DNA of 64,000 nucleotides from Defluviimonas salinarum (lineage in GTDB: Bacteria > Pseudomonadota > Alphaproteobacteria > Rhodobacterales > Rhodobacteraceae). Where the stretch lies: contig NZ_JAPDOG010000001.1 of the NCBI RefSeq assembly GCF_026013545.1, forward strand, positions 161,815-225,814. The letters run 5' to 3'. This document shows, piece by piece, positions 17,033 to 23,065 of this stretch (positions are counted from its first letter, which is position 1; every line of letters starts with the position of its first letter). The notes below the pieces were generated by a model that saw only the letters and a list, made by a program, of their open reading frames with translations, was not told the origin of the DNA and made no database searches. The translations under genes and the position numbers were made by a program.

Positions 17033-17083
17033 CATTCTGCGGCAGTGTTTCGGTGATCGAAGGATTAAAGCGGAGTGCGCCAG

Positions 17084-17797
17084 ATGCGAATCCTGTTGGT
17101 GGAGGATGACCCGACAACCTCGCGCAGCATCGAGCTGATGCTGACCCATGCCAATCTCAACGTCTATTGCACGGATCTCGGCGAGGAGGGGATCGACCTG
17201 GCGAAGCTCTACGACTACGACCTGATCCTGCTCGATCTGAACCTGCCGGACATGAACGGGCACGAGGTGCTGCGCCAGCTTCGCCTGGCGAAGGTCGATA
17301 CGCCGATCCTGATCCTCACGGGCGCGGATGATACCGAGAACAAGATCCGCGGCTTCGGATTCGGTGCCGACGATTACATGACCAAGCCCTTCCACCGCGA
17401 GGAGCTTGTCGCGCGTATCCATGCGATCATCCGCCGGTCCAAGGGACACGCGCAGTCGATCATCCGCACCGGCAAGATCGGCGTCAATCTCGACGCCAAG
17501 ACGGTCGAGGTCGAGGGGCAGACGGTGCATCTGACCGGCAAGGAGTACCAGATGCTGGAGCTGCTCTCGCTGCGGAAGGGCACGACCCTGACCAAGGAGA
17601 TGTTCCTCAACCATCTCTACGGCGGCATGGACGAGCCGGAGCTGAAGATCATCGACGTCTTCATCTGCAAGCTCCGGAAGAAGCTCGCCGAGGCCACCGG
17701 GGGCGAGAACTATATCGAGACGGTCTGGGGGCGTGGCTATGTGTTGCGCGAACCCGCGCTGAACGAGGCTGGCCGCAGGCTCGCCCTCGGCGCCTGA
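17084..17797 (+). CDS. ctrA: Cell-cycle response regulator CtrA
   Basis: OmpR-type response regulator; a cell-cycle master regulator in Caulobacter and a regulator of motility and gene transfer agents in Rhodobacterales. The 237-residue protein has the receiver domain at residues 1-115 with acidic pocket E7-D8-D9, phosphorylated Asp51 ([11 protein letters not shown]) and Lys in MTKPF. The winged-helix domain includes [19 protein letters not shown] and [17 protein letters not shown] 17084 (MRILLVEDD) is chosen over an in-frame GTG nine bases upstream because CGGAG is well placed and the family starts here. Confidence 0.96.
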
Positions 17798-22152
<4,355 letters not shown>

Positions 22153-22157
22153 CATTA

Positions 22158-22193
22158 GTTCTTCATGCGTTCTTAAATGTTCCTAAAAAGTTC
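22158..22193 (+). promoter_or_regulatory. Two tandem SOS (LexA) boxes
   Basis: GTTC-N7-GTTC occurs twice: 22158-22172 (spacer TTCATGC) and 22179-22193 (spacer CTAAAAA), six bases apart. This direct repeat is the established LexA box of alphaproteobacteria such as Rhodobacter sphaeroides. The boxes lie 65-100 bp before the start of the 40-residue gene, the only gene facing them. A TTTACA at 22194-22199 could be a -35 element; a convincing -10 was not seen. Confidence 0.8.
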
Positions 22194-22257
22194 TTTACAT
22201 CGCGTGCGCAATATGAGAACAAATAGGCAACAGAGACGCATTCGAGGGAGTTGCCCG

Positions 22258-22380
22258 ATGAAGACCGATCTGAAATCCGTCCTGATGCGCGCCCGCGGAA
22301 CGCTGGTGCAGGACATGGCGGGCCTTTGCTCGCTCGTCGTGATGCTGCTTGTCGGGCTGCACCTGCCCAGCCTGATCTGA
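22258..22380 (+). CDS. SOS-controlled small membrane peptide (40 aa)
   Basis: No known family recognised. ATG 22258 has a GAGGGAG ribosome site nine bases upstream. The peptide has a basic N-terminal half (KTDLKSVLMRARG) and one hydrophobic segment at about residues 19-40 (MAGLCSLVVMLLVGLHLPS), consistent with a single membrane pass, ending at Ile40. Its promoter region has two LexA boxes and its own terminator follows, so it is a separate SOS transcription unit. By analogy with Caulobacter SidA, a LexA-controlled one-pass inhibitor of division, it could restrain division after damage; this is inference, with no sequence match claimed. An in-frame ATG at 22177 would start within the SOS boxes and is not used. 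Confidence 0.75.
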   Translation: MKTDLKSVLMRARGTLVQDMAGLCSLVVMLLVGLHLPSLI

Positions 22381-22478
22381 CCCCTTACTGCCTCGCGGTT
22401 CTCCGCCCGGAAACGCGCCTATCCCCGAACCCGCGGCTCCCCAAGCCCACGCGCCCGGACACCGGAAATCGCCTCCTG

Positions 22479-22515
22479 CCGCCGCATCCGTGAGGATCGC
22501 GGCGGTTTTTTTTTC
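22479..22515 (+). terminator. Rho-independent terminator after the SOS peptide
   Basis: Stem CCGCCGCATCC / GGATCGCGGCGG (one bulged base) with a GTGA loop, followed by nine T residues at 22506-22514. It lies about 100 bp after the SOS peptide stop, with nothing recognisable in between. Confidence 0.9.
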
Positions 22516-22546
22516 TTGATCCGGGCAGGGAGCGTTCGGGGGTGTC

Positions 22547-22990
22547 TCAGGCCGCGGCTTCGGCCTGGGCCATCGCCTCGGCCGTCGCCTCGAGTGCCAA
22601 GAGGATCGAGGCGTGTCGGTTCTTGAACTCGCGCGCCGGCAGCAGTGCCTCGTAACCCGTGAAGGGGGCGGATGGGACCGGTCCGCCATCCTTCAGCATC
22701 GCCCGAAGCTCGTCGCGGGCGCGTTCGACCTCCGCCCGCGTGCGGCCGATCATCGCCGCGCCCGAGAGCGCCGCCGAGGCCTGGCCGAGCGCGCAGGCCT
22801 TCACGTCCTGACCGTAGTCGGTGATCCGGCCGTCGCCGACGACGATATCGACGGTCACGGTGGAGCCGCAGAGCGGCGAACGCTTGCGCACGGTCGCGGT
22901 CGGGGTGTCGAGGCGCCGCATGTGCGGAATGTCGGCCGCGAGCGCGAGGATGCGCTGAGAATAGAGCTTGATCAGGTCGGTTTCGCTCAT
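22547..22990 (-). CDS. IscU/SufU-like iron-sulfur scaffold protein, third Cys replaced
   Basis: Member of the IscU/NifU N-terminal scaffold family, which assembles Fe-S clusters or accepts sulfur. The 147-residue protein keeps two of three cluster cysteines, C41 (SPLCGSTV) and C66 (KACALGQASAAL). At the third position the expected Cys is Ser128 (NRHASILLALEA). ATG 22990 gives a normal N terminus (ETDLIKLYSQRIL); a longer start at 23020 is possible. It is divergent from hisI. Without the third ligand it may act as a sulfur acceptor or carrier rather than a classic scaffold (inference). Confidence 0.85.
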   Translation of the reverse strand: MSETDLIKLYSQRILALAADIPHMRRLDTPTATVRKRSPLCGSTVTVDIVVGDGRITDYGQDVKACALGQASAALSGAAMIGRTRAEVERARDELRAMLKDGGPVPSAPFTGYEALLPAREFKNRHASILLALEATAEAMAQAEAAA

Positions 22991-23065
22991 GGGCTTGCTC
23001 GGGCTTTCCTCGGTCGGCATTCCCCTCTAGATAGGCCGAACGGCTGGCAATGCAAAGGTGGCACG

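Follow-up and report, generated by a model that had tools for sequence, protein, structure and literature searches.

Dual-function RNAs, in which one RNA supplies both a small protein and a regulatory part, are known from SgrS/SgrT and RNAIII, and SOS-type control of a single-pass peptide is known from Escherichia coli tisB; the available passages on dinQ likewise describe a single-pass peptide under SOS-type control. The Caulobacter DidA/DriD pair, with an SOS-independent damage peptide, is a precedent for control of a small membrane peptide by a damage regulator other than LexA. Caulobacter SidA is presented, in the excerpts available, as a 29-aa SOS-induced division inhibitor of the inner membrane that interacts with FtsW (PMC4211646). 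UdsC is described in the available extracts as a 67-nt sRNA from the RSP_7527 3′ UTR, cut by RNase E from a 300-nt mRNA, which lowers RpoHII and rises with H2O2 (PMC9779115, PMC8625941, PMC6238624).

Here we describe a locus of Defluviimonas salinarum for which we favour, with a probability of about 0.6, the reading of a stress-controlled mRNA with two outputs, a peptide and a regulatory RNA. It resembles SidA in its short, predicted one-pass inner-membrane peptide and in a promoter with suspected LexA-type repeats, and differs in that LexA control is doubtful here and that the SidA passages available mention no structured 3′ UTR RNA; a SidA-like role for the peptide is attractive, as a functional guess from size and topology rather than from a comparison of sequences. 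The DriD site is given in the source excerpts as a 20-bp pseudo-palindrome, whereas GTTC direct repeats are present here. The nearest experimental parallel that we found is UdsC, since RSP_7527 of R. sphaeroides likewise encodes a small hypothetical protein on a transcript of ~300 nt and gives rise to a regulatory RNA from its 3′ UTR. This likeness is one of description and not of sequence, and the UdsC extracts differ in reporting a 67-nt sRNA and an RpoHII promoter. SgrS/SgrT and RNAIII are also likened by description and not by sequence, and differ from the multi-stem 3′ part with repeated CUGYCY loops found here, while in comparison with tisB and dinQ our predictions gave no sign of an antisense RNA and showed the 3′ UTR folding back on the start region in only 6 of 58 transcripts.

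Layout of the locus behind recG

The window, that is, the whole stretch of 64,000 nucleotides that was analysed, carries the locus on its + strand in the order recG end, GTTC repeats, TTTACA, GAAC-N7-CAAC, GAGGGAG, 40-codon gene and terminator. Relatives were compared as 61 units, composed of the 30 best peptide loci (picked by protein) and 31 loci picked by DNA, 29 of the latter by the promoter pattern and two, from a plasmid collection, by similarity. The features are as follows.

20065..22152, + strand: recG (NF008164, 1121 bits, cut-off 785; start codon picked by eye)
22158..22172, + strand: outer repeat pair GTTC-N7-GTTC (exact match)
22169..22193, + strand: core repeats GTTC-N6-GTTC-N7-GTTC, second spacer A-rich; box A is 22179-22193
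22194..22199, + strand: -35-like hexamer TTTACA, abutting box A (TTTACA in 56 of 61 units)
22214..22231, + strand: TGA plus box B (GAAC-N7-CAAC, 22217-22231) in the expected -10/start region
22244..22250, + strand: putative ribosome-binding site GAGGGAG (from sequence), 7 nt before the ATG
22258..22380, + strand: peptide gene, 40 residues, predicted one-pass membrane peptide, MKTDLKSVLMRARGTLVQDMAGLCSLVVMLLVGLHLPSLI (from relatives, codon pattern and predicted helix)
22388..22393, + strand: RNA leader CUGCCU, the sole CUGYCY motif remaining in the window copy
22395..22472, + strand: shortened core of the 3′ UTR RNA, with stem P1 (GCGGUUCUCCG.. paired with ..CGGAAAUCGC) around a C-rich loop and hairpin GGCUCCCCAAGCC (from the MFE fold)
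22478..22514, + strand: predicted intrinsic terminator GCCGCCGC..GCGGCGG plus T9 (from sequence, fold and terminator scan; stem kept in 26 relatives)

The peptide ORF runs from an ATG at 22258 to a stop codon at 22378-22380. The terminator stem (22478-22505) begins 97 nt past this stop codon and has nine T behind it; the terminator scan returned one site at the locus compared with 0.5 in shuffles, and is therefore weak by itself. A first-pass annotation of this DNA had described a 40-residue gene after recG with a good ribosome site, a membrane segment and its own terminator, all of which were recovered by sequence, predicted helix and scan. Its elements were correctly placed, but it took nothing to lie between the gene and the terminator and so missed the structured 3′ UTR described below. 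Four GTTC copies lie in the promoter (22158, 22169, 22179 and 22190) and form GTTC-N7-GTTC twice, at 22158-22172 and 22179-22193, as the tandem boxes of the earlier reading had it, although GAAC-N7-CAAC at 22217-22231 had been overlooked.

The 3′ end of recG was recognised upstream by residue motifs in 55 of the 61 units, and two of the six misses had short flanks. In the window, ctrA, ligA and recG form one + strand row just before the locus (17075-22152; NCBIfam, with CtrA as NF045991), and a convergent SufU/NifU-like gene follows on the - strand at 22547-23020 (TIGR01994, 48.9 bits, below the cut-off of 92.5). A SufU/NifU-like residue motif was found downstream in 48 of the 61 units.

Conservation of the promoter and the peptide

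Taken alone, GTTC-N7-GTTC is weak evidence against chance, with five occurrences in the window where 1.8 would be expected (a count of five was reached in 5 of 100 shuffles) and 121 genome-wide against 73 for the reversed pattern. The full pattern, GTTC-N7-GTTC-TT-N16..21-TGAGAAC, had exactly one match per genome in 215 of 295 Rhodobacteraceae genomes and its reversed control had none in the same 295, which argues that the promoter as a whole is not a chance arrangement, even though one of the 215 matches, in genome G146, looks like a chance match. The pattern had no match in the other 80 genomes. The first-pass annotation had proposed, as a check, that the peptide frame and the boxes be conserved together in relatives, and the pattern was indeed found upstream of all 30 best peptide loci, which had been picked by the peptide alone. 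A DNA scan of a species collection with a slightly longer spacer, which catches only the long-spacer variant, returned 29 contigs; the organisms named in their titles are all Rhodobacterales, and one contig is titled only Alphaproteobacteria bacterium. Behind the promoter, all 31 DNA-picked loci carry an ORF of 31-44 codons with a hydrophobic stretch, and such a stretch is present in the ORFs of all 61 units, both counts being favoured by an ORF chooser that preferred ORFs of this kind; a stricter residue motif was absent in 9 of the 31.

Individual promoter elements varied to different degrees. The position of the outermost GTTC varies among relatives, and across the 61 units the repeat upstream of box A stood at N6 in 53, at N7 in three and was absent in five. 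The hexamer after box A was TTTACA in 56 units, TTTACT in four and TTGATC in one, with TTGAC, TTGCC and TTGAT as further variants among the family-wide pattern matches, and the distance from box A to GAAC varied by about one base; together, the hexamer variants and this one-base variation in spacing fit a promoter. At N7 behind GAAC, the second half of box B was CAAC in 47 units, TAAC in nine, AAAC in three and GAAC in two. No sigma-70 match was obtained at the promoter at the scanner's threshold. In the genus of G150 (loci L161-L166), box A is kept, the spacer contains an additional GTTC, and only a short stem remains of the RNA.

Searches with the 40 residues (E ≤ 0.01) identified relatives of the peptide in 209 of 295 Rhodobacteraceae genomes; among the 260 genomes with completeness of 90% or more and contamination of 5% or less, 185 had one. 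A class-wide sample of 289 genomes gave six matches, of which four were in Rhodobacteraceae; the remaining two lie within ORFs of 290 and 526 residues, and we take them as chance. In a 40-column alignment of the 30 best-scoring relatives, T15, D19, G22, L30, L34 and P37 were invariant, and mean differences at codon positions 1, 2 and 3 were 0.42, 0.28 and 0.59, respectively, as counted over the genes whose length is exactly 40 codons (48 of 61). AlphaFold predicted a single helix over residues 2-39 (mean pLDDT 90.6). Judged by these comparisons, the 40-codon ORF is not a product of chance.

The peptide is poorly represented in reference collections. The 30 relatives had no match in Pfam and a single chance-level match in NCBIfam (E 0.075, 1 of 30), and in PHROGs only two families were matched, both weakly (E 0.0089 at best; 2 of 30 members). 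A sequence search of the PDB with the peptide returned none, and the phage records searched held no match. A DNA search of plasmids gave six weak matches, and the two inspected, on Paracoccus and Pseudorhodobacter replicons, are the peptide locus. The earlier remark that so short a gene is easily missed by annotation accords with a conserved gene for which none of 30 relatives has a Pfam match.

A structured RNA in the 3′ UTR of relatives

Comparison of relatives indicates that their 3′ UTR is a conserved structured RNA, and part of the same predicted transcript as the peptide. Downstream of the stop codon, the 61 units share repeated motifs and pairing arms, with a TGCC[TC] leader shortly past the stop codon in relatives, the motif itself having been used to set the RNA start. 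A long-range stem, defined by a first pair no more than 30 nt from the start of the RNA and a span above 60 nt, was present in the MFE fold of 55 of the 58 units with a recognised terminator, and mostly begins 5-8 nt into the CUGCC leader. A covariance model of this RNA (R1; 12 sequences, 14 pairs) matched 99 of 295 Rhodobacteraceae genomes, at one place per genome. In 74 of the 75 genomes where it could be placed relative to the peptide, the RNA lay 4-72 nt (median 13) behind it on the same strand, the exception being the weakest R1 match; the other 24 of the 99 genomes comprise 17 with a peptide match whose place is not shown and seven without a match.

The closing stem P1 was assessed in several ways. 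Across 54 distinct sequences, 93.9% of P1 cells were paired, whereas shuffles gave 76.9% and slid partners 28-41%, and double changes occurred in 13 of 14 pairs, with none of 500 shuffles reaching these values; these counts lean towards structure because the alignment behind them (A5) was fitted to R1 and includes its 12 seed sequences. A MAFFT alignment of 12 sequences made without structure still had double changes in 6 of 14 pairs, while RNAalifold on a 26-sequence MAFFT alignment (A2) found the terminator stem only and not P1. The mean MFE z-score was -2.58 for 56 RNAs without their terminators, 38 of which fell below -2. P1 arms from the same RNA paired at -24.0 kcal/mol compared with -17.8 kcal/mol for swapped arms, yet the RNA's own 3′ arm ranked first in only 9 of 54 swaps. 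P1 was kept in 42 of 58 predicted whole transcripts. CUGYCY occurred 3.12 times per RNA against 0.54 when shuffled, and 76% of its bases were unpaired compared with 44% of all bases. The loops keep their sequence as the stems covary.

The RNA was also compared with Rfam 15, where 12 loci gave no match at the gathering score. Four further loci searched at E values up to 5 gave only eight sub-threshold matches, of which a single one overlaps an RNA, namely SNORA77 in L051 (E 1.1, with 22.1 bits against a gathering score of 42). A second form of the RNA, with P1 closing as GCGG..CCGC and other inner hairpins, was seen in L051, L053, L060, L062, L067, L073 and L076, which are Maritimibacter and Sinisalibacter records.

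The copy in the window is short, measuring 78 nt from end to end of P1, and comprises the C-rich loop CUAUCCCC, the hairpin GGCUCCCCAAGCC and one CUGYCY motif (the leader CUGCCU). Its P1 was present in the MFE fold of the RNA and also in the predicted whole transcript; at the same-genus locus L006, the same stem formed in the RNA folded alone and not in the whole transcript. R1 had no match in the window's own genome (G000) or in the same-genus genome G010, although the fold is similar by eye, and the z-score of the window copy was -0.38 without the terminator and -1.54 with it. The RNA of this genome is shortened and may be weakened. The RNA part of our reading has good support across the family, but for the window's own genome, with its short copy, missing R1 match and poor z-scores, it is no more than plausible.

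Control of the promoter and competing readings

We assessed LexA control by comparing box A with SOS boxes. The window's own genome has GTTC-N7-GTTC boxes at lexA, recA and uvrA: recA at L033 (G000:C34:122811), uvrA at L031 (C23:62832) and lexA at L043 (C1:278886-278911), the last with three repeats. A further box, L032 (C31:8622), lies beside a radical-SAM gene that is presumably splB-like. In nine LexA-positive relatives, a perfect box was found at recA in nine and at uvrA in eight. Box A of all 61 units has an A immediately ahead of its second GTTC, where 27 of 29 SOS boxes at lexA, recA and uvrA have T, in counts of related sequences that are not independent events; 31 of the 61 units were chosen by DNA pattern or similarity, and the pattern leaves this base free. 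The 29 SOS boxes (recA 10, uvrA 9, lexA 10) come from LexA-positive genomes and the window's own; boxes of LexA-negative genomes do not enter this set, nor does uvrA of G270, which has no perfect box, nor the lexA loci L104, where the box lies far upstream, and L098 and L101, where none was seen. Two other regulators considered for the repeats were rejected, namely CenR, which reads TGA-N8-TGA in the source excerpts and does not fit GTTC repeats, and DriD, whose site in the excerpts is a pseudo-palindrome of 20 bp and not a GTTC direct repeat. The available part of a D. shibae LexA study does not mention the peptide gene.

Genomes without a detectable LexA pointed in both directions. The LexA DNA-binding domain (PF01726) was not detected in 17 of 295 Rhodobacteraceae genomes, and the promoter pattern was present in 6 of these 17 compared with 209 of the 278 positive genomes (p = 0.0009). 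Ten of the 17 are not of high quality, however, and among high-quality genomes the promoter was found in three of seven LexA-negative and 189 of 253 LexA-positive genomes (p = 0.08). The recA and uvrA boxes were inspected in ten of the 17 (uvrA of G059 unscored). Both boxes are kept in G158, G160 and G195 despite no detected LexA, and in these three lexA is probably missing from the draft assembly only. G028, G069 and G150 retain the full promoter pattern with LexA undetected; a perfect box is absent from recA and uvrA in G028, from recA in G150 (uvrA kept) and from uvrA in G069 (recA not found), and these boxes have decayed only slightly, by about one base as judged by eye. G150 encodes two S24 proteins, resembling a phage-type repressor and UmuD. 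LexA was found in six of the seven genomes of its genus, which implies a recent loss; the promoter pattern is also present in six of seven, and the genome without the pattern has LexA. In G157 (L147), a draft assembly with a run of N, there is no LexA and no GTTC promoter or boxes are left, with the peptide and RNA kept. The earlier suggestion of LexA control therefore stands in part: GTTC direct repeats are present at the promoter, which is rarer where LexA is missing, but the A that precedes the second GTTC in every one of the 61 units speaks against it. LexA control of the peptide gene is doubtful and partly supported by these sequence comparisons, with LexA as one of two candidates.

Were the locus a LexA-repressed SOS gene for a SidA-like division-inhibiting peptide, RecA-triggered cleavage of LexA would free boxes A and B, the peptide would bind a late division protein and the 3′ UTR would only stabilise the mRNA. 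We regard this as possible but rather unlikely as a whole: the GTTC direct repeats, the same boxes at the genome's own lexA, recA and uvrA, the rarity of the promoter in LexA-negative genomes and a peptide that resembles SidA in size and single helix all favour it, but the invariant A, the next repeat at N6 in 53 of 61 units, a box B that is imperfect in 59 of 61, the persistence of the pattern in LexA-negative G028, G069 and G150 and the weaker association in the seven high-quality genomes count against it, and the conserved RNA is left unexplained. The other candidate is a different regulator acting on the GTTC repeats, for example an OmpR-family response regulator that activates from direct repeats of 10-11 bp by a weak -10. 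OmpR-family regulators often bind direct repeats, according to the excerpts available (PMC9275681). Consistent with such an activator, three to four GTTC copies at 10-11 bp steps end at the -35, the spacer has a distinct signature, no sigma-70 match reached the scanner's threshold, and three LexA-negative lineages whose SOS boxes are imperfect retain the pattern. Control of this kind is also on balance doubtful, as no candidate protein was identified, the LexA loss of G150 is recent with its uvrA box intact, the decay of SOS boxes in the three lineages is slight and the promoter is more often absent in LexA-negative genomes. CtrA reads TTAA-N7-TTAA, a motif that does not fit the repeats.

Other explanations concern the products rather than the trigger. 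The RNA could be the main product, with the peptide as a short translated leader in control of processing or stability, as suggested by loops that keep their sequence while stems covary and by the seven of 99 RNA-positive genomes without a peptide match (G080, G082, G151, G153, G199, G201 and G202), four of which carry the promoter pattern. Invariant residues and a coding signature in the peptide make this improbable; for a query of 40 residues, failure to match at E ≤ 0.01 does not amount to absence, and in the window the peptide is intact and the RNA reduced. A type I toxin, in which the mRNA of a hydrophobic peptide is silenced by fold-back or an antisense RNA as for tisB and dinQ, would agree with a small hydrophobic peptide, a structured mRNA and a stress-type promoter, and the start region is indeed paired, mostly with the coding part (at least four bases in 47 of 58 predicted transcripts, a count without a shuffle control). 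The start region paired with the 3′ UTR in only 6 of 58 predicted transcripts, also without a shuffle control, and the promoter pattern gives one copy per genome, usually behind recG. There was no promoter-like site on either strand of 22100-22560 and hence no sign of an antisense RNA there, and we consider a toxin improbable. Orthology with R. sphaeroides RSP_7527-UdsC would account for a similar layout and length (a 300-nt mRNA against 294 nt predicted here), but has a low probability, since the RSP_7527 promoter is read as RpoHII-dependent in the extracts available and loci L063, L068, L070, L071 and L077, which we judge to be near R. sphaeroides, predict 254-266 nt; as flanking tags, the same extracts give only RSP_2633 at 1,273,100 and RSP_2685 at 1,330,900, and do not mention recG.

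Under the reading we favour, that of a stress-controlled mRNA with two outputs, a single short transcript (~300 nt, 294 nt predicted in the window) would give two products. It would start from a dedicated promoter, probably read by the housekeeping sigma factor, and the GTTC repeats upstream of the -35 together with GAAC-N7-CAAC at the -10/start imply that a DNA-binding protein can gate it. The trigger would be a stress signal, for which LexA is one candidate. The first product would be the peptide of 40 residues, whose N-terminus is basic and whose single helix would span the inner membrane; it may act on an envelope or division membrane complex. The second would be the 3′ UTR, predicted in many relatives to form a long closing stem, several hairpins that expose CUGYCY loops and an intrinsic terminator; whole or excised by an RNase, this RNA could pair its C-rich loops with G-rich targets such as ribosome-binding sites, or bind protein. 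We give somewhat less than even odds to a more specific version for the family, in which a Rhodobacteraceae-wide recG locus encodes the peptide and an undescribed multi-loop RNA whose CUGYCY loops serve as sponge or anti-ribosome-site fingers, and in which the GTTC repeats are read by a regulator that is not, or not only, LexA.

Sequence comparison across Rhodobacteraceae shows that the promoter, the peptide and the RNA have been conserved together as a unit, in most cases with recG in front. The unit has no Pfam match, no NCBIfam match beyond chance and no Rfam family (16 loci), and is present in about seven in ten of the sampled Rhodobacteraceae genera (peptide in 209 and promoter in 215 of 295). 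Being widespread in the family and, by the promoter pattern, found once per genome, it likely matters to these bacteria. If our reading is true, membrane peptide and regulatory RNA would both be tied to a promoter of stress type next to recG, and the locus would allow a test of whether GTTC repeats can be read by a factor besides LexA. The repeated loops of the RNA provide a direct hypothesis on its partners.
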